Origin: a virus
Reading direction: 5' to 3' (one strand)
Length of the DNA stretch: 34,888 nucleotides
IMG/VR virus record: IMGVR_UViG_3300033233_000106
Location: 1-34,888 of that record
Shown: positions 4,286 to 34,867 of the stretch, in pieces
Layout of the letters: every line of letters begins with the position of its first letter
Position numbering within the stretch: position 1 is the first letter of the stretch
Position numbers and translations under genes: made by a program
Notes under the pieces: generated by a model
Database searches by the model: none
What the model was told of the DNA's origin: nothing
Seen by the model: only the letters and a program-made list of their open reading frames with translations

Positions 4286-4986
4286 CTACCCGCCCTCCGC
4301 CGGCGCCGGAGCCGGAGCCGCCTTGGCCGCATCCTTCACCGCGCGCTCGATCGTGGCCAGCAGCCCGACCTCAAACGCCGACAGCCCCGCCTGTGCCATG
4401 ATCACGCCACCCCCGCCGAACTCACGCAGCTCGTTGAGCAGATGCCAGGTGTCGAGCACCCGCACGGTCTCCGTCGGCGCCGGCGGAACCAGGCACTCAC
4501 CGGCAGCACAATCAGGTGCAACACCGTCCACCTCCTCAATCTCGCGGCACGTCTCGCACCGGACGCCGGGGTGCAGCATCCTGGCGCGCACGTGCCGAAT
4601 CAGTTTCCCCGGATCTTCTCCCGCTCGGCCTGGGTGAGCGCCTGGATGTCGTCGGCCATCTGCATCACGAACGCCTTGAACTTGCGGTGGCCGGACATGA
4701 GCGCGTCCCGGTGCTCCGGCGTGAAGGGGTACTCCTGGCCGTCCATCTCGAACCCGCGCCAGCTGACGACGGCCCACTCGCCCCAGAGCCGGGCGAACTT
4801 GTCCTCGTCGGTCTTGCTGGCCGGCTGGTGGGTGCTCGGGTTGTAGTCGAGCTTCGTCGCCTTGCGGTACAGCTCGCGCGCCTTTTCGATCGGCACGTAG
4901 CGCAGCGTGACGAAGGCGGCATCTTCCGGAGCGCCATAGACCACTTCGACCTCGAAGTCGTCGGAGGTGAATTTCCCGAGTTCCAT
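4286..4986 (-). CDS. Tail assembly chaperone, long form made by -1 frameshift
   Basis: Ribosomes that slip by -1 on GGGAAAC (4603-4609) avoid the TGA at 4600-4602 and continue in the frame that ends with TAG at 4286-4288. That adds about 105 residues to the 128-residue short form, about 233 in total. The extension starts LIRHVRARMLHPG, contains a cysteine-rich piece (RCETC, DCAAGEC) and ends in an Ala/Pro tail. The pair corresponds to the gpG/gpGT arrangement of lambda, in which the long form bridges the tape measure to tube subunits during assembly. No ribosome-binding site or sensible start exists for the extension alone, which supports the frameshift reading. Confidence 0.8.
4600..4986 (-). 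CDS. Tail assembly chaperone, short form
   Basis: The product has 128 residues (MELGKFTSDDFEVEVVYG...) and is acidic and mainly helical, with Trp-rich motifs near residues 67-80. It lies between the tail tube gene and the tape measure, the conserved site of the gpG-like chaperone. The zero-frame stop follows immediately after a slippery heptamer. Expected role: transient coating of the tape measure; not part of the mature virion. The start at 4986 is 4 bp after the TAA of the tube gene. Confidence 0.8.
   Translation of the reverse strand: MELGKFTSDDFEVEVVYGAPEDAAFVTLRYVPIEKARELYRKATKLDYNPSTHQPASKTDEDKFARLWGEWAVVSWRGFEMDGQEYPFTPEHRDALMSGHRKFKAFVMQMADDIQALTQAEREKIRGN
4603..4609 (-). promoter_or_regulatory. 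Slippery heptamer GGGAAAC for programmed -1 frameshift
   Basis: In the zero frame the codons read CGG GGA AAC TGA, so the heptamer is phased exactly as X XXY YYZ. It sits one codon before the stop and re-enters an open frame of 105 codons. GGGAAAG serves lambda G/GT in the same gene position. Confidence 0.85.
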
Positions 4987-4989
4987 GGT

Positions 4990-6258
4990 TTAGATCGCCT
5001 CCTGGAGCACGTCGCCGCCGAAGGAGTTGGCCAGGGTGAGCCGGAACGGGGCGGTGAGGTTCGTCATGCCGGAAGGTGCCGCGCCAGCCGAGAGGCAGAG
5101 CATGTCGGCAGGAACGCTTAGGATGCCGTCCTTCATCGGCGCCTCGATGTCACGGAACTTCGCGTTCGGGATCTCGAGGAGCATCCGGCGGTAGGTGCTG
5201 CCCGAGAGCAGCGCGCCGGTGAACGTCAGGTCGATCTTCTGTGACGTACTCGCGTTGGCCGCGTTGATCAGTGCCAGGCTGGCCGCGTCGTAGCGGGGCA
5301 GCTCGTACTTGAGGCCCACCTCGGGCGCACCGTCGTTGGTCGGCTCGTCGATGTTGTCAAAACTGCCACCGACGCCATAGACACCCGCCATCTTGCGCTG
5401 AAACGAGAACTCGAACGACGTCGGGTAGATCCGGTCCGAGTCCTGGAGCGCCGCTCCGCTGGCCGTGTTCTGCCGGAACTTGAGCATGTTGAAGAGCAGC
5501 CGGTTCGCGGTCTCGGGGAACGTGACGTTGAGGATCGTGACCGTGGTGTTCGTCGCGCTATCGGATTTTCGGTCGTGCGCGACGATCTTGAACTCCACGT
5601 CGATCGGCTTGCCGGTGCCGCCCTTGAGGGTGAAGCCGGACACCTTGGCCGTCGTGAGTTCATCGACGCTGATACTGCCCATCTTCGCAGCCATCGTGAT
5701 GAACTGGCCATCGGTGTTGTCGGCGAGGGTGTAGGTGTGCGTCGTGGCCGCGCCGGAGACAGTGAAGACCGAGACGTTGGTATTCGCCGCGGGCATCGCC
5801 GCGAAGGTCAGTGTGGTGTCGGTGTGGCTGATGATCTTGCGCGTCACGCCAATATTGAGGGCCACGCCAGCGGTCACGGTGACGTACTTGCCGACATACT
5901 GCGTGGTACCCATACCCGCGGCGCCGACGAGCGTGGTCGTGCTGCCGCTGGTGGCTGTCTGCGACGCCACGCCCGGGACGGTCATCACCAGCGAATGCGT
6001 GCCCATCGCCATCGCGATCATGAGATCGAGCGAGTCGAAGCGCATGTAGCCGACGATATTGCCGTCGACCTTGATTTCCCCAAGATCAATGTCGGCCGGC
6101 CATCCGAGCCCGAGCGAGTCATCGACGCTCGTGGAGCGCGCCCGCTTGAAGGTGCTGGGGCGGATCAGGAACCCGTTGTTCGCGCCGACTGCGACCGGGG
6201 TTGCCCAGGCTGCCGCCTTCTTCGCTGCAAACTTGATTTCACTGCCGGTCGCTGCCAT
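4990..6258 (-). CDS. Major tail tube protein
   Basis: The product has 422 residues and starts at ATG 6258 after a strong leader (AGAAGGAG). It is a beta-rich virion protein with an N-terminal core (MAATGSEIKFAAKKAAAWAT) and a long Thr/Val-rich middle, probably an inserted Ig-like or beta domain at about residues 95-175 (TTTLVGAAG, DTTLTFAAMP). The core resumes at about residue 190. Its place just upstream of the chaperone frameshift pair is the standard position of the tube gene. No sheath gene accompanies it, so the tail is non-contractile. The only other gene sharing its leader element is the coat protein, consistent with high expression. Confidence 0.8.
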   Translation of the reverse strand: MAATGSEIKFAAKKAAAWATPVAVGANNGFLIRPSTFKRARSTSVDDSLGLGWPADIDLGEIKVDGNIVGYMRFDSLDLMIAMAMGTHSLVMTVPGVASQTATSGSTTTLVGAAGMGTTQYVGKYVTVTAGVALNIGVTRKIISHTDTTLTFAAMPAANTNVSVFTVSGAATTHTYTLADNTDGQFITMAAKMGSISVDELTTAKVSGFTLKGGTGKPIDVEFKIVAHDRKSDSATNTTVTILNVTFPETANRLLFNMLKFRQNTASGAALQDSDRIYPTSFEFSFQRKMAGVYGVGGSFDNIDEPTNDGAPEVGLKYELPRYDAASLALINAANASTSQKIDLTFTGALLSGSTYRRMLLEIPNAKFRDIEAPMKDGILSVPADMLCLSAGAAPSGMTNLTAPFRLTLANSFGGDVLQEAI

Positions 6259-20463: not shown

Positions 20464-20504
20464 CGCAGCTCCAGCGGCAGGTACACGCTCGCGGCGGTGC
20501 CCAT
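20460..20504 (-). CDS. 14-codon mini frame linking two genes
   Basis: It encodes MGTAASVYLPLELR. The start forms TGATG with the stop of the ATPase gene and the stop forms ATGA with the next start, so ribosomes could pass from one gene to the next through it. Its sequence also contains the ribosome-binding site (GGAG) of the downstream gene. It may serve only as a coupling leader. Confidence 0.35.
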   Translation of the reverse strand: MGTAASVYLPLELR

Positions 20505-22444
20505 CACGCGCACACCTCCTCCAGCTCCGGGGTCCCCACGCGCACGAACTGCACGTTCGGAATCTCCGGAGCCTCGAACTCGTCGTCCGTGGTCGCGCAG
20601 ATGATCAGCTGCTCCACCAAGCCAGAAGCAGCCACCCCCGCAAGCCCGGCGCGGCCCTCTCCGTCGAGGATCTCCGCGCCGTCGAATGCAACCAGGCCGA
20701 TCCCGGTGGCGCGCGCCAGAGCGATCTGCAGGGCCAGCGCCAGGCGCATCTGCTCGGACGTCGACAGCAGCTCCGCGTCACGCCCGGGGATCCCGATGCG
20801 CCAGGAATCGACGGTGATCTCGACCCCGGGGAGCCCGAGCAGCGTCACGACCTCGCCGGCGGCCGCGAGCAGGGGACCGAGGGCCGCCGACATCAATCCG
20901 GCGCGCTCGCCGTTCGGTCCGTACTTGAGACAGGCCGCCTCCGCCTGGTCGAGCTGCTTTTGCATGGTTGACCGGTGCTCCTCACGGTCCCGGGCCAGCC
21001 GGACGACGGTGTCGCGATCGCTGACCTGTGTCCGCAGCTGCGTCCCATGGCTGATGCGGGCCTTGAGAGTGACGATCGCCGAGTCGATCTCGCCGGACTT
21101 GCCGATCCCGACGAACTCCCCGACCTTGGCCTTGAGCTCGGCGAGGCGCACCCTGCCCTCTTCAACAGCCTCCCCCGCAGCAACGACCTTCTCCGCAGCC
21201 TTCAACTCCCGCTCGCGCTCCGGCAAGCTCGACATCCCCGCGCCAGCACGCACCTCGGCCAGCTCCTGCTGAATTCCGGCGGTCTGGTCGGTGATGGCCT
21301 TCACGCGGGCCGTGCGGGTAAGCACGACGGCCTCGGTCCAAGCGGCGATCTTCTTGTTGCGTTCGGCGATCGCGGCCTCGAAGTGCCGCACGAGGGCCTC
21401 TCTCCCCGCCTGGTCGATCTTGCACGGGATCTCCCCCGAGACCAGGCAGGCCCCGGACATCTTATTGACGGCCTCGGCGGCGGCAACATAGGCGTCCCGC
21501 TGCTCGGCGTAGCTCGCGGCCTCGCCCTCGAGGAGGATCGTCCCGCGCTTGAGCGAGATTTCCAGCTTCGTGCGCTCCTCGCACAGCGCCTTGTTCTGAG
21601 CGAGCAGGTCGGCCTCGCGCTTTTCGATCCCGGCGGCGGCCTGACACAGACTCTCGATCGCGTCCCTGAGCTTCTCGGCCTCCTTGCGGGCCTTGGCGGT
21701 TGCTGCCTTCGACGGCGCGGCCTGCAGGCGCCCCTCCAGCTCCTGAACCTCGGCGGCGATCTGTTCGGCGGCCCCGACGGTACGGCCGCGCTCGTCGACC
21801 AAGGCCTCCAGCTGGGCCCTCAGATCCGTGAGCTGCTCGTCGACCTGCGCGACGGTGTAGCCCGGGTCGGCCGGGATTGGCGGGGACACGAGCAAGGAGA
21901 CCGACCTCTTGAGCCCGGCCCGGGTGCTCTTCGCCTCCTCGTACTTCGCGTCGAAGTCGGCCAGGTCCACGCCGAGCGCCTTGAGAAGCAGGTCCTTCTG
22001 GCGCGCGTGGTGCAGGCCGAGAAAGCCGTGGACGTCCAGGCAGGCGTGCAGCGCGTCGCGATCGAAGCCAAGGGAGGCGGCGACGGATGCCCGCGCGGCG
22101 ACGGCCGGCAGGACCTGGCCGCCCATAGGCCACCGGGCCCCGCTGCCGTTGATGGCGACGTTCACGGGGACGTGCGTCCCGATTTCGTACCCGGCGCCAT
22201 CGCCGCCGGTGGTCTCGAGCGAGATCTCGGCGGCCTTGCCGTGCTCACCGATCAGCTCCTTGACCCCCGCACCGCGCTCGTCGGTGCCGCGGCAGTAGCC
22301 GAGCAGGCCGAAGTGGATGGCGTCAATGATCGATGATTTCCCTGCGGCGTTGCGCCCGTGGATGATCGTGACGGGCAATTCGAACGAGATGTCGGCGAAC
22401 TCGTGCGAGCGGAAATTCTTGAGGACGACCCGGTCGACGCGCAT
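20504..22444 (-). CDS. SbcC/Rad50-like ATPase
   Basis: The product has 646 residues and starts at ATG 22442-22444 (MRVDRVVLKNFRSHEFADIS), overlapping the upstream stop as TGATG. Walker A GRNAAGKSS lies at 30-38, with the flanking FRSHEFADISFELPVTIIHG of the RecF/SMC/Rad50 class. Two coiled-coil arms (about 165-325 and 350-500) are separated by a hook-like C333/C341 pair (CLVSGEIPC, spaced x7 rather than CxxC). The signature LSTSEQMRLALALQIALA is near 556-575 and Walker B GLVAFDGAEILD near 582-593. Such ATPases work with a nuclease in end processing and recombination-dependent replication. No SbcD-type phosphoesterase is present; the Cas4-like nuclease two genes upstream is a possible partner. 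Confidence 0.85.
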   Translation of the reverse strand: MRVDRVVLKNFRSHEFADISFELPVTIIHGRNAAGKSSIIDAIHFGLLGYCRGTDERGAGVKELIGEHGKAAEISLETTGGDGAGYEIGTHVPVNVAINGSGARWPMGGQVLPAVAARASVAASLGFDRDALHACLDVHGFLGLHHARQKDLLLKALGVDLADFDAKYEEAKSTRAGLKRSVSLLVSPPIPADPGYTVAQVDEQLTDLRAQLEALVDERGRTVGAAEQIAAEVQELEGRLQAAPSKAATAKARKEAEKLRDAIESLCQAAAGIEKREADLLAQNKALCEERTKLEISLKRGTILLEGEAASYAEQRDAYVAAAEAVNKMSGACLVSGEIPCKIDQAGREALVRHFEAAIAERNKKIAAWTEAVVLTRTARVKAITDQTAGIQQELAEVRAGAGMSSLPERERELKAAEKVVAAGEAVEEGRVRLAELKAKVGEFVGIGKSGEIDSAIVTLKARISHGTQLRTQVSDRDTVVRLARDREEHRSTMQKQLDQAEAACLKYGPNGERAGLMSAALGPLLAAAGEVVTLLGLPGVEITVDSWRIGIPGRDAELLSTSEQMRLALALQIALARATGIGLVAFDGAEILDGEGRAGLAGVAASGLVEQLIICATTDDEFEAPEIPNVQFVRVGTPELEEVCA

Positions 22445-24315: not shown

Positions 24316-25272
24316 CTAGAACAGCTTCGGGCGCGCAGCCCGGTTGCCGTTGCCGTTGCCGCCGGCGGGTTTCGTGGTGGCCGCGGCGGGCGGCGCGGAT
24401 GCGGGAGCGCCAACGCCGGCGCCGGCGCCGACCAGCTCGGGCTCGACGGGCTCCTCATGGGTGACAGGCGGGAGCGGCGGGTAGGGGGCCGTGCGCGTCC
24501 CGGCCGGCGCCTGCTCGCTCTCCGCAACCAGGTCCTCCTCCTCAACCACCCCGTTGCCCAGTTCGGCCACCGCCTCGGGCAGCGCCAGGCGCCCGGCCGG
24601 CATCCCCTGCGCCATCGAACGGACCTCCTCGAGCTTCCCGCGCAGCGTCTTCATGACGTCGAAGGCCGCGATCGCCAGAGACATCGTGTGGATGACTTTC
24701 TTCTTGCCGTCGGCCGTGACCTCGCGTGGGGAGAGCCGCAGCGTGAAGGGCACGAACGCCACGCGGCCGCCGAGGATGTCCTTCGCGTAGGCGATGCCGG
24801 ACTGAACGTCGATGATGCTGTTGATGGAGCTGGTGTCGATCTGGTAGACCCCGCCGATGGACACGCGCGGAAGAATGATCATGAAGTTCGCCATCTGCTT
24901 GCAGCGCGCCGGCGTGGTGTTCAGGTGCTCACACGGACAGGCGCACTCCCCGATGGCGCCGCCCTCGCCGACGCCGACGCGGTAGCCGGTCTCGCCGTTG
25001 CCGGTGCACCACAGGCCGACGCCGGACTTGTAGTACTTGTAGGCCGTCGGGAAGACCTCGGCCAGGTTGTCGCTCGGCAGCAGCACCTCCAGCTCGTGCG
25101 GCTGCTCCCCGTAGATCGCGACGACCTCGGGTGGGCAGACGAAGTAATCGACAGCGGAGGGGTACTCGTTGCCCTTGGCGCTGAACTTCTTCACACCCAG
25201 GTGGATCTTGCCGATCCGCGGGAGCCGGCGCTCCTGGGACAGGCCGATGATACTGGTCACTCTGCGGCTCAT
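24316..25272 (-). CDS. Recombination directionality factor-like (Gp3-like) protein
   Basis: The product has 318 residues. Residues 15-215 resemble the Gp3-like/recombination-directionality-factor-like family: GKIHLGVKKFSAKGNEYPSA, PHELEVLLPSDN, a cysteine block ECACPCEHLN...RCKQMANFMIIL (about 108-130) that may hold zinc, and the GGVYQIDTSSINSIIDVQSG strip near 140-160. The C-terminal 90 residues are Pro/Ala/Gly-rich and disordered, ending KPLF-like (RPKLF). Without an integrase in the genome a role in directionality is doubtful. In phages lacking integrases such proteins may bind single-stranded DNA in replication. The family call comes from pattern memory. Confidence 0.55.
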   Translation of the reverse strand: MSRRVTSIIGLSQERRLPRIGKIHLGVKKFSAKGNEYPSAVDYFVCPPEVVAIYGEQPHELEVLLPSDNLAEVFPTAYKYYKSGVGLWCTGNGETGYRVGVGEGGAIGECACPCEHLNTTPARCKQMANFMIILPRVSIGGVYQIDTSSINSIIDVQSGIAYAKDILGGRVAFVPFTLRLSPREVTADGKKKVIHTMSLAIAAFDVMKTLRGKLEEVRSMAQGMPAGRLALPEAVAELGNGVVEEEDLVAESEQAPAGTRTAPYPPLPPVTHEEPVEPELVGAGAGVGAPASAPPAAATTKPAGGNGNGNRAARPKLF

Positions 25273-26851: not shown

Positions 26852-26898
26852 ATATTTATTTTGTCAAGAGAATAATTTACTTGACAGAAAATAAATAT
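26852..26898. promoter_or_regulatory. AT-rich 47-bp palindrome, candidate operator
   Basis: ATATTTATTTTGTCAAG (26852-26868) and CTTGACAGAAAATAAATAT (26880-26898) are inverted copies that differ only by a two-base GA insertion in the right arm. TTGACA appears on both strands. It stands between the divergent leftward early operon and the rightward cassette region in a GC-rich genome. No well-spaced -10 follows either TTGACA, so an operator or a promoter of another sigma type are both open. Confidence 0.55.
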
Positions 26899-26907
26899 GG
26901 GTTAGGC
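26898..26907 (+). repeat. Cassette core box TGGGTTAGGC at the left edge
   Basis: ATGG-GTTAGGC here matches the right arm of the attC-like sites at 28331-28341 and 29139-29149 and the half-site at 18022-18040. No left arm is present. In an integron this is how the first cassette joins the insertion site, so it may mark the left end of the cassette block. Confidence 0.5.
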
Positions 26908-26918
26908 GAGTTTTGTTG

Positions 26919-26947
26919 TTGCTATTTGTATAGCGTCGCCCTATATT
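26919..26947 (+). promoter_or_regulatory. Sigma70-like promoter for the rightward genes
   Basis: TTGCTA (26919-26924), a 17-bp spacer and TATATT (26942-26947) match the consensus at 4 and 5 of 6 positions. The short inverted repeat GCTAT-TTGT-ATAGC (26921-26934) overlaps the -35 and the spacer and could be an operator. The first gene starts at 26996. Confidence 0.5.
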
Positions 26948-26995
26948 GTTTTTGACGGGGACGACAGGCGGACCCGAAAACGGGGGGGGGCGGAA

Positions 26996-27244
26996 ATGAA
27001 ACTCGACTGGAGCGCAGTGACCGGCGGGAAAAACAGCAGCAGGATTCAGCGGGCCGCGAGAGTCGTCAACGGACTCACTGGCGAGCAGCAAGCCCTTGTT
27101 CGCCTCGCCGAGTGCGCCGACGAGAAGACCGGCGTGCGCTACGGCAACAGGGCGGTGCGGAAAGGACGGGCTGTGAAAATCGGCGGTGGCGGGCGCAACG
27201 CTGGCGATCGGTGGGCGTATCAAGTCTGGTTGGTGTGGGCGTGA
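26996..27244 (+). CDS. First rightward gene, unknown basic protein
   Basis: The product has 82 residues (MKLDWSAVTGGKNSSRIQRA...). It is preceded by a G9-CGGAA ribosome-binding site. The N-terminal helix RIQRAARVVNGLTGEQQALV is followed by a Gly/Arg-rich, probably disordered region and a short WAYQVWLVWA end. Its TGA overlaps the GTG of the next gene. The family is unknown. Confidence 0.6.
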   Translation: MKLDWSAVTGGKNSSRIQRAARVVNGLTGEQQALVRLAECADEKTGVRYGNRAVRKGRAVKIGGGGRNAGDRWAYQVWLVWA

Positions 27245-27387
27245 AAAAAACGGGAACATCACAGGTCAACGTCCGCCTGCCTGCCGTGACCGTGCGGCAG
27301 GTAGCGGCACTGAGAAAAAAACTCGGGACCGCGAGCAACGCCGCCGTGATAGTGATTGCGGTTGACCGACTGGCGCAGTCCCCGTGA
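27241..27387 (+). CDS. Small ribbon-helix-helix-like protein
   Basis: The product has 48 residues with GTG start 27241 (GTGA overlap before and after). SQVNVRLPAVTVRQVAALRK followed by a second helix NAAVIVIAVDRLAQSP fits a strand-helix-helix DNA-binding domain with nothing else attached. It may regulate the methyltransferase gene that follows. Confidence 0.55.
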   Translation: MKKTGTSQVNVRLPAVTVRQVAALRKKLGTASNAAVIVIAVDRLAQSP

Positions 27388-28067
27388 TTATCCACGGAGA
27401 CGCGCGGCTGGTTCCGCCGGGCGGCGATGCCGACCTGGTTGTGATCGACCCGCCGTGGGACTCGCCGGAGCTGTTTCGGTGCGGCAGTGATTCTCCGAAC
27501 CGGATTGTATTCGCCGACGGATTCCGCGCGGGGGACGCGATCCGCGAGAACGGGCCACCAACATGGGTGTTCGTTTGGGACTGCGTGTCGAGTTGGTACA
27601 CGCAGAACCGTCCACTGAAAAGAATGAAGCTCGCGCTCTGGTACGGACGAATATCGGACTACAACCCAGACGGATACTTGCACGGAGGCCCGTGCGGAAA
27701 AAATCGAGTCGTAACGAACACGCGCGGAGCTTACCTGTTCGAGCCCGCAAGCGGGAAACACCTGTCCGACGTGTACCAACAACCGATAACGTCACTGCGG
27801 GCCGCACAGGTTCACGGGCACAGCAAGCCGATTCATTGGTTGTGCTACCTGCTCGCCAACTGCTCGGCAAGTTGCTCTCGCGTCGTTGACCTGTTCGCGG
27901 GGTCCGGCGCGGTTGGCGTTGCGGCAAAGATCATCGGGAAAAATTATGCGGGATTCGAAATAGACAAGTCGTCTGTGGTTGCCGGAAATGCGGCGATTGC
28001 CATGGCGGTGCGAAAACGAGAAACAACACAGGAGGAACTGCAATGGCCCTCGGCTACCACAAAATAA
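27384..28067 (+). CDS. DNA methyltransferase (amino-MTase, beta class), first
   Basis: The product has 227 residues with GTG start 27384 (GTGA overlap). The catalytic motif IV IDPPWDS (21-27) comes before the AdoMet-binding motif I VVDLFAGSGAVGVA (167-180), the order of beta-class N4-cytosine/N6-adenine methyltransferases. The residues between (WVFVWDCVSSWYTQNRPLKR) form the target-recognition part. It is rather small for the class. No restriction endonuclease is adjacent, so it may protect phage DNA. The 3' end overlaps the next gene by 25 bp. Confidence 0.8.
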   Translation: MIIHGDARLVPPGGDADLVVIDPPWDSPELFRCGSDSPNRIVFADGFRAGDAIRENGPPTWVFVWDCVSSWYTQNRPLKRMKLALWYGRISDYNPDGYLHGGPCGKNRVVTNTRGAYLFEPASGKHLSDVYQQPITSLRAAQVHGHSKPIHWLCYLLANCSASCSRVVDLFAGSGAVGVAAKIIGKNYAGFEIDKSSVVAGNAAIAMAVRKRETTQEELQWPSATTK

Positions 28068-28339
28068 ACACCAGCGCGGCCCGGAACAAAATCAACGAGT
28101 GGCGCGGCGGCCGCCGTTGTTCCGGCGACGATGCGCAGTTCGTGCAGCCGGGGACGGCAATAACATGCCCGAACCGTGGCCTAGGGAAAACGTGCCTTGG
28201 GTTCGTCTCTGACTGCGACGTTGTTTTTGTGCGGTTCGATTCCGGTGATCGCGTCCAGATGACGGGCCGAGAGATTCGTTTGTTGTTTCCGCCTAACATC
28301 CCGTTGAGCGGCCGTAGGTCCGCTCCAACGATGGGTTAG
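28043..28339 (+). CDS. Unknown protein ending inside attC-like site
   Basis: The product has 98 residues (MALGYHKINTSAARNKINEW...), with GGAGGAA before the ATG. A small beta-rich domain is likely (FVQPGTAITCPN, DCDVVFVRFDSGDRVQMTGR). The last 16 residues (PNIPLSGRRSAPTMG) are encoded by the attC-like site, and the TAG stop lies in its right box GTTAGGC. Reading into the recombination site is usual for cassette genes. Function unknown. Confidence 0.6.
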   Translation: MALGYHKINTSAARNKINEWRGGRRCSGDDAQFVQPGTAITCPNRGLGKTCLGFVSDCDVVFVRFDSGDRVQMTGREIRLLFPPNIPLSGRRSAPTMG

Positions 28340-28341
28340 GC
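28291..28341 (+). repeat. attC-like recombination site 1
   Basis: R'' GCCTAAC (28291-28297), 5-nt spacer ATCCC, L'' GTTGAGCGG (28303-28311), 8-nt loop, L' CCGCTCCAAC (28320-28329), 5-nt spacer GATGG, R' GTTAGGC (28335-28341). L'' and L' pair over nine bases with one extra C in L'. R'' and R' pair fully and the spacers do not, the layout of a folded attC. At 51 nt it is at the short end for such sites. Confidence 0.7.
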
Positions 28342-28358
28342 GCTATTTAGATGGAGGG

Positions 28359-28550
28359 ATGATGACTACTCGGTATTCAGACGATCACTTATCACTATTT
28401 CACGCCCTGCTACACCTGCGGGCGAACAAGATCACGAAGCCATCGCCCTACGTCGGCGGCTGGTACTCCGGCAACCGGAAACATTTCATAGCGCGACACC
28501 TGAAAGCGATTGCGCTGCTGGAAAAGATGCTGGCGAAGGAGGATGTTTAA
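28359..28550 (+). CDS. Small cassette gene, unknown
   Basis: The product has 63 residues (MMTTRYSDDHLSLFHALLHL...); ATG at 28359 or 28362 behind GGAGG. It lies 17 bp after the core box of attC-like site 1. Helical, with LFHALLHLRANKITKPSPYV and a basic HFIARHLKAIALLEKMLAKE end. No family recognised. Lone small genes of unknown function are the commonest content of integron cassettes. Confidence 0.6.
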   Translation: MMTTRYSDDHLSLFHALLHLRANKITKPSPYVGGWYSGNRKHFIARHLKAIALLEKMLAKEDV

Positions 28551-28579
28551 TGTAGTTTTACCACCTACTTGTGTTAGGC
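28545..28579 (+). repeat. Degenerate attC-like site
   Basis: The right box GTTAGGC is intact (28573-28579). GTTTAAT at 28545-28551, over the stop codon of the gene before it, may be the left box. The inner stem is only GTAG/CTAC (28552-28555, 28565-28568). It lies between two genes, each with its own ribosome-binding site, as a cassette border should, but the fold is poor. Confidence 0.35.
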
Positions 28580-28609
28580 GCAGTTTTTAATTGTTCGAGA
28601 GGAGAGACG

Positions 28610-29116
28610 ATGACAGGCTTTCCGCCCGTGCTCGATATGTGCTGCGGCCCGCGCATGATGTGGTTCGACAAGGACGACGAACGGGCGGTGTTTCTCGACA
28701 AGCGCAAGGAACGCCACGCGATGAACCGCCCGAAGCGCGGGACGGTGGAGTACACGGAGACGTGCCCGGACGTGCTCTGCGACTTCACGCAACTGCCGTT
28801 CCCTGACGGGGTGTTCTCGCTGGTGGTGTTCGATCCGCCCCACTTCGAGCGGTCGGGTAACATCGGATACCTGGCGAAGAAATACGGGTGGCTGCCTGAT
28901 GACTGGCGCCCGATGATCCGCGCCGGATTCTCCGAGGGCTTCCGCGTGCTGGCGCCTGGCGGGACGCTGATTTTCAAATGGACGGCGACGGAGAACCCTG
29001 TTTCCGAAATCTTGAAGCTGACGCCGATGAAGCCACTGTTCGGGCACAAGTCTGGCAAGCAGTCGATGACACATTGGATTGCTTTTTTGCGGCCTAACAT
29101 CCGTCGTGAGCCGTGA
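28610..29116 (+). CDS. SAM-dependent methyltransferase-like protein with DPPH motif
   Basis: The product has 168 residues and starts at ATG 28610 (MTGFPPVLDMCCGPRMMWFD) behind GAGGAGAG. LDMCCGPRMMWFDKDDERAV (8-27) takes the place of motif I, FDPPHFE (74-80) is the catalytic-type motif IV, and FRVLAPGGTLIFKW (about 112-125) is the usual strand pair after it. A KSGKQSMTHWIAFL end completes a family often seen in phages. The target (DNA or other) is unknown. The TGA stop lies inside attC-like site 2, directly after its left box, as in integron cassettes. Confidence 0.7.
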   Translation: MTGFPPVLDMCCGPRMMWFDKDDERAVFLDKRKERHAMNRPKRGTVEYTETCPDVLCDFTQLPFPDGVFSLVVFDPPHFERSGNIGYLAKKYGWLPDDWRPMIRAGFSEGFRVLAPGGTLIFKWTATENPVSEILKLTPMKPLFGHKSGKQSMTHWIAFLRPNIRREP

Positions 29117-29149
29117 GCGGAGCGAATTGGCTCCACGCATGGGTTAGGT
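29092..29149 (+). repeat. attC-like recombination site 2
   Basis: R'' GCCTAAC (29092-29098), spacer ATCCGT, L'' CGTGAGCC (29105-29112), 16-nt loop, L' GGCTCCACG (29129-29137), spacer CATGG, R' GTTAGGT (29143-29149). L'' and L' pair over eight bases with a single extra C in L', at the same relative place as in site 1, although stem and loop sequences differ. Shape conserved while sequence varies is the hallmark of attC sites. Its right arm recurs at 18023-18040. Confidence 0.7.
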
Positions 29150-29169
29150 ATTTTTTGATCGGAGGAACG

Positions 29170-29331
29170 ATGACGCCACGAGAACACGTTCAGGCCGCGA
29201 TAGAGCACCTGCTGATAGCGCAGGACCAGCTTGAAGCGGAACACGTCGCGGACGGCTACGGCAGCAAATCGCGCCCGCTGCGGTTCGTCGAGAACGCGCT
29301 CCTGGCATTAAGTCAGGCATACCCGAAATGA
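29170..29331 (+). CDS. Small cassette gene before methyltransferase
   Basis: The product has 53 residues (MTPREHVQAAIEHLLIAQDQ...); ATG 29170 behind GGAGG, 20 bp after the box GTTAGGT. Two amphipathic helices joined by a GYGSKSRP loop. The stop overlaps the next start as ATGA, so the two genes are translated together. Function unknown. Confidence 0.6.
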   Translation: MTPREHVQAAIEHLLIAQDQLEAEHVADGYGSKSRPLRFVENALLALSQAYPK

Positions 29332-29993
29332 GCGAGCGCGTGGTGATCGGGGACGCGGTGTTGTGGCACGGCGATTGCCTCGAAATCCTGCCGACGCTGC
29401 CGAAGGTGGATTGCGTTGTGACGGACCCGCCGTATGGGATTGCGTGGAGCAGGGGCGCCGGCACCGGGCCGAAGATGAACTGCAAGGGGCACGACGGAAT
29501 CCAGAACGACCACGATACCAGTTACCGCGATAACGCCCTGGCGCTGGTTGACGCCCCAGCCGTGGTCTTCGGGTCGTTCTACGCGCCTGCTCCGGCACGG
29601 GTGAAGCAGGTTCTCGTGTGGCACAAAAGCGGCGACTCCGGGGTAATCGGCTCGGTGACGGGATTCCGCCGGGACGCAGAACCGGTGTTCCTCTGCGGAA
29701 AATGGCCGGTAAGGAAAGTTGAATGGTCCTCGGTCCTGCGCTCGCAATTTGGCCAATCGTCAATCGTCACCGAAACCGGACACCCGCACACGAAGCCACA
29801 CGACCTGATGAGGAAGCTGCTGGCAGCGTGTCCCCCCGGCACCATCCTTGACCCCTTCATGGGCTCCGGCACCACGGGAGTCGCCGCCGTGCAGATGGGT
29901 CGCAAGTTCATCGGCATCGAAATCGAGCGCAAGTATTTTGACATCGCGTGCCGGAAGATCGACGATGCACAAAAACAGGTGCGGTTGTTTTGA
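29328..29993 (+). CDS. DNA methyltransferase (beta class, DPPY), second
   Basis: The product has 221 residues. VTDPPYGIAW (31-40) is motif IV with the DPPY typical of N6-adenine enzymes, LDPFMGSGTTGVAAVQMGRK (174-193) is motif I, and FIGIEIERKYFDIACRKI follows. The IV-then-I order makes it beta class. HTKPHDLMRKLL (about 154-165) is the conserved lead-in to motif I. It is an orphan: no nuclease gene is nearby. Protection from host restriction or epigenetic control are the likely roles. Two bases after the TGA stop comes ACCTAAC, the left box of the last attC-like site. Confidence 0.85.
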   Translation: MSERVVIGDAVLWHGDCLEILPTLPKVDCVVTDPPYGIAWSRGAGTGPKMNCKGHDGIQNDHDTSYRDNALALVDAPAVVFGSFYAPAPARVKQVLVWHKSGDSGVIGSVTGFRRDAEPVFLCGKWPVRKVEWSSVLRSQFGQSSIVTETGHPHTKPHDLMRKLLAACPPGTILDPFMGSGTTGVAAVQMGRKFIGIEIERKYFDIACRKIDDAQKQVRLF

Positions 29994-29994
29994 T

Positions 29995-30064
29995 ACCTAA
30001 CCAGGGGATAGGTGGCAGCGGCTTTACCGGTTCAGGGCCCGTAGCTACCCCGACTGAGTTAGAC
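29995..30064 (+). repeat. Third candidate attC-like site (degenerate)
   Basis: ACCTAAC (29995-30001) and GTTAGAC (30058-30064) fit the RYYYAAC and GTTRRRY consensus boxes. GGGGATAG (30004-30011) pairs with CTACCCC (30045-30051) with one extra A in the left arm. The spacers are unequal (2 and 6 nt). It lies right behind the stop of the second beta-class methyltransferase and would close the last cassette. Confidence 0.45.
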
Positions 30065-30066
30065 CG

Positions 30067-30119
30067 CAGCGGCCTATCCCAGTCGTAGCCGCCACCACCA
30101 CGACTGGAATAGGCCGCTG
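30067..30119. terminator. Long inverted repeat between convergent operons
   Basis: CAGCGGCCTATCCCAGTCGT (30067-30086) and ACGACTGGAATAGGCCGCTG (30100-30119) pair at 19 of 20 positions around a 13-nt loop. It stands where the rightward cassette genes meet the leftward lysis operon and could stop transcription from both sides. No T tract follows on either strand, so a role as a recombination or packaging structure cannot be excluded. Confidence 0.5.
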
Positions 30120-30171
30120 GGGTTGCCCGGTGGGACGCCCTGGGTTGCGTCTACGTCCCTCGTGGCCGCCG

Positions 30172-32296: not shown

Positions 32297-34867
32297 TTAT
32301 TCCCACCACTCCACCGCGTTGAACGTCGCCTTATTCACCCCATCGCGAGAAACGGACTCAATCCAGAACTTCACACCCTCCCAAAAGCCCATGCCCGTGG
32401 GCGTGATCGTGTCGCCGATTTGCAGGTCGGTGTTGTCCCAGAAGACGGGGAAGGAGAGGGTGCGCATCACGCGGTTGCGCTGGAGCAGGTAGATGTCGCC
32501 GACGTCCGCCGCCTGGTTCGCATCGTAGACCATCCTTAATTCGAGTGGATCGCCCGAGAGCACCGGGTAATTGCCAACGATGTTTTCAACGAGCACGCTC
32601 TTGCGGTATCGATCTTTGTCGCCGGCAGGGCCGTCGTTCTTGTCCCAGCGCAGCGTGAGCGAGTTCTGCACGTCGTCGCGCCGGGTGTAGCCGCAGGTGA
32701 ACTCGGCGCCGGCGCCGGCCAGATCGGCGATCGAGATCGTCCGCACGGACGCGGGCGCCGCCGAGGGGATGACCTTGAGGTACCACTTGCCGAGAGCGAA
32801 ATAGACGATGCTGCGCGACTCGAACGCCATGCGGTACAGTTCATCGAGCGGGTCAACGTCTTCGGTCACGCGCACGGACAGGGCGTACTCGGGTGACTGC
32901 GCAGCGTAGAACGTCCCGGCCTCATCAAAGGACGTGGTGTCGATATCGGCCTCAGTAAAGCCGAGCTTTCCGACGATCCACTTTTTCATGACGTGATCGG
33001 GCCTGGTGATGGCAGCCGCGGCCGTGCCGTAGAACGTGCTATCGGCGGGCAGGCCGTAGCCGCTGGCGTAGATGCGGCGGAAGTACTTCTCGTCTTTCAC
33101 CGTGCCTGTCTTGACGAGCGCTGTCCCGTTTAAAATGCAGAGGTATGACGCGTCGACCGATACGTCGAACAAGCAAAACGGCTGCACTGTCCATGAAATT
33201 CCAACGTCAAGGCCCCAATTCAGCGCAGGCACGGTGATATAGAGGGGGAAAGCGCCAGGGCCGACGACCTGCCACCACTCGACCCATGCGCCATTCCACC
33301 AGCGATAATGAGTTGACCCGCTCCACATGACTGCCCATGGGTTGCTGCCGATTTTATATTTCAGCGTTCCGCCACGGTCAACCGTGCCGGCCTGACCTGT
33401 CGGGTATTGCGTAAACGATCTTTCGGTTATGCCGAGCTGGAGGCGCAGTCTCGTATGCGTGTACTGAGGAATGCCGCCGCCGTCCAGGTACGGGTTGGCT
33501 ATCCAATTAAATGTCTTGCTCGACGACGCCCCGTTCGTCGTGAAACCGTCATTCAGCGCCACGCGACTATCGTCAGACGGCACGGCGTCGCCGCCTGAAA
33601 TGTCGATTTCGTCCAGTATCGTGTTTGGCACAACGAGCGAAGATTTCGGAATTTCGATCTCATAGCGCCCATCAACAAAGTATGTCGAGTAGACCGAAAT
33701 CGGCGCGAGCAGATCGCCGAACTCGCCATACACGGCGTCAACCGAAGCCAGATCGTTTTCCGAAATAGCAACGGCTGAGTTTGCTGAATCAGCGGTGAAT
33801 TCTGTGACGAGCGCATTTACTCCATGGGCGGCGGCGGCCGTTCCGCCAGTGCCTCTTGTGCATCCCGTGAACTGCGTCTTTGACACAGCGGTATAGGTGA
33901 TGCGCTCGCTTCCAATCCAGATCACGAGACTGCTTGACAACCCGAACCCCGCAGCAGTCTTGACGGTTATCGTTGTCTGCGAGGAATTTATTGCACTGGT
34001 CAGGCGACACGTTTTCGCTGAGTAGTCGGTCGGGTACTCTGCAATGATTGCCCCGGCTGTATGCGCTGCTGCAACCGTGCCGCCTGGAGTTCCTCGGGTG
34101 CATCCGCTAAAGTAATTCGTCCCTGCCGTCGTGTTCTTTGTCGCCCATACGATTCGTTCGCCGTCAATCCAGATAACTTTTTCCTCGTCGCCATATTCTC
34201 CAAACCCACCCGCGCCCTCAGTCGGCGTTGTGACGCAGTTAATCGTGGTGGAGTCCGCACTAATATTGTCGTTTAGGTGGCACCAGTTGTCTGTCTCGAA
34301 CACCGGCCATCTGATCCTGCGGCACTCGACTGTCTTAAATTGCCCGAGTAGGTACGGGAATGCCTTGCCTGATTCGCTCGGCAGGCATAGGGGGAAGTCG
34401 GCGCTGAACATTTTGGAGAGAGAGAACGCCTTCGCTTTATATTCGGGGACGCCGGTACAGCGCAGCGTCAGCGAGGCGCGCGTGATGTTCTGCGGCTCTT
34501 CGGCAATGCCGACGAAGAGCGGGACTTGCGGCGTTGTTTTCGTGCCGTCGCGGAAGACGTAGGCGACTTCTACCTTGGCGCCGACGATGGGGTGCGCGTC
34601 GTTGATTTCGACAAGGGCGGTGTGGTGCGCCGATGACGGGTAGTAGATTTTCAATATTGGCACAACAAGAAAATCCCTGGGGACGGCCGGAGTGAAGTAG
34701 ATTTTACCGCCTGGCGTGTTCCCGGTGATCGTCACGGTCTGCGTCGGGTACGAAAACGCCTGTGTAACCTCCATCGTCTTGCCGACAAGACAATTTGCAG
34801 TCCAGACTCGCCGGGTGCCAACTGAACATTCTGCCGTGCCCGCGCCGGTATAGTATTCCCCCGCCGC
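32297..34867 (-). CDS. Tail tip / hub protein, remainder of the 1051-residue gene
   Basis: This continues the gene that starts at 711. Residue 196 of the full protein is encoded at 34865-34867, and the TAA stop is at 32297-32299. An apparent ATG at 34871-34873 is made by the fold-back tail and is not the start. Two imperfect copies of a 70-80-residue module lie at about 391-473 and 482-552, sharing VIWIDGERIVW / VIWIGSERITY and GCTRGT-rich segments, probably beta domains on the tip. The C-terminal 300 residues (DPLDELYRMAFESRSIVYFA, NRVMRTLSFPVFWDNTDLQI) resemble the hub region of siphophage tip proteins. It likely contacts the host and closes the tail. Confidence 0.8.
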   Translation of the reverse strand, partial: AAGEYYTGAGTAECSVGTRRVWTANCLVGKTMEVTQAFSYPTQTVTITGNTPGGKIYFTPAVPRDFLVVPILKIYYPSSAHHTALVEINDAHPIVGAKVEVAYVFRDGTKTTPQVPLFVGIAEEPQNITRASLTLRCTGVPEYKAKAFSLSKMFSADFPLCLPSESGKAFPYLLGQFKTVECRRIRWPVFETDNWCHLNDNISADSTTINCVTTPTEGAGGFGEYGDEEKVIWIDGERIVWATKNTTAGTNYFSGCTRGTPGGTVAAAHTAGAIIAEYPTDYSAKTCRLTSAINSSQTTITVKTAAGFGLSSSLVIWIGSERITYTAVSKTQFTGCTRGTGGTAAAAHGVNALVTEFTADSANSAVAISENDLASVDAVYGEFGDLLAPISVYSTYFVDGRYEIEIPKSSLVVPNTILDEIDISGGDAVPSDDSRVALNDGFTTNGASSSKTFNWIANPYLDGGGIPQYTHTRLRLQLGITERSFTQYPTGQAGTVDRGGTLKYKIGSNPWAVMWSGSTHYRWWNGAWVEWWQVVGPGAFPLYITVPALNWGLDVGISWTVQPFCLFDVSVDASYLCILNGTALVKTGTVKDEKYFRRIYASGYGLPADSTFYGTAAAAITRPDHVMKKWIVGKLGFTEADIDTTSFDEAGTFYAAQSPEYALSVRVTEDVDPLDELYRMAFESRSIVYFALGKWYLKVIPSAAPASVRTISIADLAGAGAEFTCGYTRRDDVQNSLTLRWDKNDGPAGDKDRYRKSVLVENIVGNYPVLSGDPLELRMVYDANQAADVGDIYLLQRNRVMRTLSFPVFWDNTDLQIGDTITPTGMGFWEGVKFWIESVSRDGVNKATFNAVEWWE
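34742..34867. repeat. Direct terminal repeat, right copy
   Basis: Same 126 bases as 1-126; redundant sequence that closes the circle. Confidence 0.9.

Follow-up and report, generated by a model that had tools for sequence, protein, structure and literature searches.

Two hairpin-forming sites in a tailed-phage genome are most probably integron attC sites that lie backward relative to the surrounding genes, such that an attC together with the gene or genes downstream of it constitutes a cassette; we assign this reading a probability of roughly 85%. The window, i.e., the whole stretch of 34,888 bp that was analysed, is an IMG/VR record representing a tailed-phage genome with recognisable terminase, portal, and major head protein genes. 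Positions 1-126 recur at 34742-34867 as a direct end repeat of 126 bp; the 21-base tip beyond it reads as the reverse complement of a nearby stretch. Due to this repeat and the tip the genome is considered close to complete, and both look as if the assembly had ended on a genome that is circular or circularly permuted. Most genes of the window are located on the minus strand, except for a plus-strand block from approximately 26,900 to 30,000, which comprises three DNA methyltransferase genes and small ORFs. The features of this block are as follows.

26897..26907 (box at 26901): half-site ATGGGTTAGGC on the upstream border of the block, an 11-mer that also forms the 3' end of site 1; probably left over from an attC that has been lost
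27384..28067, plus strand: DNA methyltransferase gene, upstream of site 1 and after the 26901 half-site
28043..28339, plus strand: 98-aa ORF, the frame of which crosses site 1 and stops in the 3' box of site 1
28291..28341, attC top strand on the minus strand: attC site 1, 51 bp; the plus-strand hairpin leaves a C and a T unpaired in its 3' arm
28297..29097, minus strand: predicted cassette 1, site 1 and two downstream genes, if the crossover falls between GCCTAA and C
28362..28550, plus strand: 62-aa ORF of cassette 1, without a match in Pfam or PHROG
28573..28579: isolated GTTAGGC box with no second box to match it, shortly before the start of the methyltransferase gene; probably a site that has decayed
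28610..29116, plus strand: DNA methyltransferase gene (phrog_954, E 1e-61), last codons within site 2
29092..29149, minus strand, polarity as site 1: attC site 2, 58 bp, perfect boxes and weak inner stem
29098..30000, minus strand: predicted cassette 2, site 2 and two downstream genes, bounded by the rule derived from relatives
29170..29331, plus strand: 53-aa ORF of cassette 2
29328..29993, plus strand: DNA methyltransferase gene (phrog_67, N6_N4_Mtase)
29995..30001: ACCTAAC box directly after the last array gene; proposed as the candidate point at which the array joins the phage core (an attI-like end), by analogy with L302

The two attC-like sites at 28291-28341 and 29092-29149, which a preliminary description had noticed for their common boxes and different stems and loops, are indeed present. 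Site 1 is composed of GCCTAAC-ATCC-CGTT-GAGCGG-CCGTAGGT-CCGCTC-C-AACG-ATGG-GTTAGGC and site 2 of GCCTAAC-ATCCGT-CGTG-AGCC..GGCT-C-CACG-CATGG-GTTAGGT. They have GCCTAACATCC and ATGGGTTAGGY as well as the spacers ATCC/ATGG in common, and the inverse and core boxes RYYYAAC ... GTTRRRY are exact in both. With a scanner for two boxes and an inner stem, only these sites were matched in the 34,888 bp; 300 dinucleotide-shuffled whole windows yielded four matches, and none of them contained two. The boxes at 26901, 28573, and 29995 lie outside the site ranges of the preliminary description. A third attC at 29995-30064 was ruled out due to box mismatches and unequal spacers. Between convergent genes at 30067-30120, a long imperfect inverted repeat (AGCGGCCTAT..ATAGGCCGCT) was seen by eye, which is probably a bidirectional terminator.

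Folded as DNA, site 1 is far better than its shuffled versions (z -4.9; 0 of 200 shuffles as good), but site 2 does not exceed them (z -1.3; 25 of 200 as good). The unpaired central spacer is seen in site 1 by fold and aligner, and in site 2 by the aligner, with a weaker fold. The earlier proposal of selection on structure fits these observations, but two sites cannot prove it. On the plus strand, both sites have an extra C in their 3' arm; which C of a CC pair is extrahelical is ambiguous. In the fold of site 1 a second unpaired base, T, occurs on the same arm, so that T and C are spaced as T-N5/6-C, like the unpaired bases in the bottom strands of classical attC sites (PMC2727003, PMC3053210); in site 2, one extrahelical C is clear. 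C is the extra base in a minority of reversed sites (22 of 194).

The side of the extra base reports the polarity of an attC. For calibration, 160 integrase loci (80 bacterial and 80 viral intI loci) were oriented with intI on the plus strand and the array upstream, so that the plus strand corresponds to the attC bottom strand. Among 85 asymmetric sites upstream of intI, with aadA1 as control, the 3' arm of the bottom strand holds the extra base in 82. Bouvier et al. 2009 (PMC2727003) place the extrahelical bases by definition on the R''-L'' arm; once these bases are transferred to the opposite arm, the other strand recombines and the crossover occurs in the other box. Given this calibration, the 3'-arm extra base indicates that sites 1 and 2 are read on the minus strand and the array genes on the plus strand. 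The previous remark that the base is on the unusual side in gene direction and canonical in reverse is thus borne out, since the minus-strand reading results in normal attC geometry for both sites. All array genes including the methyltransferase genes are located on the plus strand, i.e., the attC bottom strand, and the genes on both sides of each attC are therefore reversed. Two explanations had been offered, another integrase type or reversed cassettes; minus-strand geometry and the crossovers in related phage arrays speak for reversal, and nothing indicates a different recombinase chemistry.

Ordinary forward cassettes, in which each attC follows its gene and the L' position of the extra base is noise or folding ambiguity, would agree with the tight gene packing, with GTTAGGY shortly before starts and with RYYTAAC at stops. 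These features are symmetrical and do not discriminate between the directions. The extra-base side tracks polarity in nearly all calibrated sites, and crossovers in related phages fall at the box opposite to the one predicted by forward cassettes, which contradicts them for the class; we regard this explanation as highly improbable. Extra bases in L' are routine in phage sets, a finding that the preliminary description would have taken against its own argument, but they reflect a real reversal of genes versus attC and do not make the base side meaningless.

Backward attC sites are not a peculiarity of this genome. Among viral contigs, the nearest methyltransferase relatives show 79-83% identity; L189 and L190 are among them, and both have two attC sites adjoining the methyltransferase gene, reversed as in the window. 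Of the three sites in contig G003, two lie amid minus-strand genes and one amid plus-strand genes, and every one of them is turned against the genes that surround it. The sites of phage TJE1 show the normal attC-gene relation, thus the rule is not universal. A survey pattern representing half an attC bottom strand, which is blind to gene direction, identified 51 viral loci, 44 of them with real attC. Gene direction was assigned by a simple caller based on codon usage, checked against TJE1 and the window; gene calling by longest ORF, which had suggested mixed directions, was dropped as unreliable in GC-rich contigs. With this pattern, all 36 sites for which both neighbours were called and agreed are reversed.

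In the viral survey as a whole (266 sites in 93 loci; some of the IMG/VR contigs may be bacterial), both neighbours are on the bottom strand at 195 sites and on the top strand at 10, most of the latter in a single contig, L151. The same procedure applied to bacterial integron loci gave 51 normal versus 2 reversed sites. Counted by locus with intI, 31 viral loci are reversed and 2 normal, as opposed to 2 reversed and 37 normal bacterial loci (Fisher 1e-15). After removal of near-identical integrases, the ratio of reversed to normal is 25:2 in viral and 2:30 in bacterial loci (4e-12). Phage cassettes are thus backward as a rule, contrary to those of bacterial integrons. Contig G005 (L277) was left out of these counts, the gene direction of its six sites being unclear; these attC-like sites are spread over 12 kb in both orientations.

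Other searches had a narrower outcome. A pattern combining the two spacers found in sites 1 and 2 had no match in viral or bacterial contigs. The pattern GGTGAAGCG..CGCTTCSACC retrieved 34 loci, nearly all of them chance palindromes, and only two arrays were real. In the relatives found by the protein encoded at 24319-25272 (L001-L022), no comparable attC array occurs and hence there is no empty site to compare with the window.

The position at which cassettes break supports the backward reading independently. One 78-aa gene occurs in L290, L328, and L302 with a conserved upstream attC, and homology begins at the 5' box of this upstream site; downstream of the gene, the attC differs or is replaced by phage core sequence. 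Considering all pairs, 10 of 10 left breaks fall at -4 to +3 from the gene-side 5' box, i.e., the site start. Several right breaks lie within the next site, at +8 to +17, and the remaining ones are ambiguous due to the resemblance between the two attC sites. As homology between phages that share a cassette starts or stops at the box on the 5' side of the gene, the attC travels with the downstream gene. In bacterial arrays the breaks are found at the same place relative to the hairpin, thus the recombination chemistry looks unchanged and it is the genes that are turned round. For the window, which has no closely shared cassette, boundaries were predicted by the crossover rule from related phages, and each of the two predicted units comprises an attC, a small ORF, and a methyltransferase gene. 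The end of window-L189 homology at an attC box was discarded as evidence, since L187 has no such site and its homology stops at the same point.

Among 194 reversed sites, 50 contain within the attC the start of the gene that follows, often after AGGAGG, whereas in bacterial loci this was observed in 2 of 108. Reversed sites of L188 and L248 contain GGAGG and a GTG start. In L188, L248, L297, L301, L303, L314, and others, the attC loop or stem holds the ribosome-binding site and start codon for the following gene. A start codon in the attC stays with its gene only if the attC and the downstream gene move together, in agreement with the breakpoints. Taken on their own, translation signals within the hairpin in many relatives, the location of the hairpins between operon genes and the reading frames entering them would also fit transcription or translation elements between phage genes that are not integron sites at all. 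This interpretation is highly improbable, as boxes, unpaired spacers, and the two-bulge stem match attC, cassettes of relatives break exactly at the box, and such sites adjoin phage integron integrases. The hairpins may nevertheless be attC sites with a regulatory side role.

Most integrases of the reversed viral loci form a group of their own. In a quick maximum-likelihood tree, 36 viral integrases are placed in one clade with support 100 and without a bacterial row; 22 of 25 integrases from the dereplicated reversed loci belong to this clade. Contigs with integrases of this clade carry terminase, portal, tail, and head genes; phrog_2 terminase is present in 23 of 50 records. At the viral intI loci (L112-L182) the cassette genes are situated upstream of intI and on the intI strand. 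A second viral clade is mostly without detectable attC. Furthermore, Virus Rctr41k (L024, KX853513) contains at 4680-5678, near methyltransferase genes, an integron-integrase-like gene, the product of which is 45% identical to IntI1; no attC was found there by the scanner. On balance we favour the view that tailed phages possess an integron lineage of their own, comprising integrases of a clade confined to viruses and a pool of viral cassettes, whose attC lies upstream of the gene and often provides the translation start, the window being an integrase-less user of this pool. With such an upstream attC, cassettes would be suited to being inserted in phage operons, and a bacterial integron would receive them in backward direction.

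The window itself contains two full attC sites and no match to TIGR02249, the profile by which an integron integrase was sought in the 34,888 bp. It therefore fits a CALIN, an attC cluster without integrase, rather than a complete integron with intI within the element. Recombination would then require an integrase from the host or a co-resident phage. The integrase would fold the gene-sense (plus) strand of the site, i.e., the attC bottom strand, and cassette breakpoints in relatives suggest that sites 1 and 2 would recombine through this strand. A cut in the box on the 5' side of the gene would move the attC and the downstream gene as one unit. In the related phages, integrases of the virus-only clade, encoded downstream of the cassettes and in line with them, would do so. 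Transcription of cassettes is probably provided by phage promoters, and many cassettes bring ribosome-binding site and start codon inside their attC. As the simplest reading, the methyltransferase load would protect phage DNA from host restriction. Alongside its hairpin recombination sites, the phage encodes an SbcC-like protein (20504-22444), SbcC being a subunit of an endonuclease specific for palindromes.

It is conceivable, if unlikely, that the sites are genuine reversed attC but dead remnants on which no integrase acts any longer in this phage. The missing integrase in the window, the half-sites at 26901, 28573, and 29995, and the weak fold of site 2 would be in line with such decay; yet site 1 is intact, and attC sites of integrase-less phages recombine with IntI1 (Qi 2023, PMC9892861).

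In the usual description of an integron cassette, the gene comes first and its attC second in the direction that leads away from the integrase, whereas in phages cassettes are consistently reversed and associated with a separate integrase clade. In the open-access literature, to which our search was confined, we found no report of a reversed attC-gene relation, of a virus-only integrase clade with in-line cassettes, or of start codons in attC. Bacterial and phage cassette pools would be partly isolated, since a cassette crossing over would lie antisense. The attC in phages would be dual-use, serving as recombination site and translation start, and phages would have a dedicated device to swap genes such as methyltransferases. 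Software built on the normal polarity may put the borders of phage cassettes in the wrong place.

Phage-borne attC arrays including methyltransferase cassettes are already known, the TJE1 sites recombine in the laboratory, and divergent sites were noted in one phage, a general reversal not being reported (Qi 2023, PMC9892861). Like the window, these phage CALINs consist of attC pairs without integrase and contain DNA methyltransferase genes, but in TJE1 the attC-gene relation is the usual one. In our analysis, one site of MW202573, a phage of the same study, looks reversed. Class 1 and chromosomal bacterial integrons share with the phage sites the boxes, the spacer, probably the unpaired bases in T-N6-G/C spacing, and the crossover position relative to the hairpin. 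They differ in the gene strand, which is the attC top strand in bacterial integrons (51 to 2) and the bottom strand in phages (195 to 10), and in the direction of intI, which is divergent from the cassettes in the former and in line in the latter. In spirochaete integrons, intI is flipped and co-directional with the cassette genes, and the attC-gene relation is the usual one. Phage loci resemble them in the co-directional intI but have the array upstream of intI and the genes flipped relative to attC. Spirochaete integrons with inverted intI have been mentioned previously (PMC9668308). A structural parallel to the window is provided by VCR mutants with extrahelical bases on the R'-L' arm, in which the other strand recombines and the crossover occurs at the other box (Bouvier et al. 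2009, PMC2727003). These mutants were made in the laboratory, whereas in phages the equivalent layout with respect to the genes is natural and widespread.
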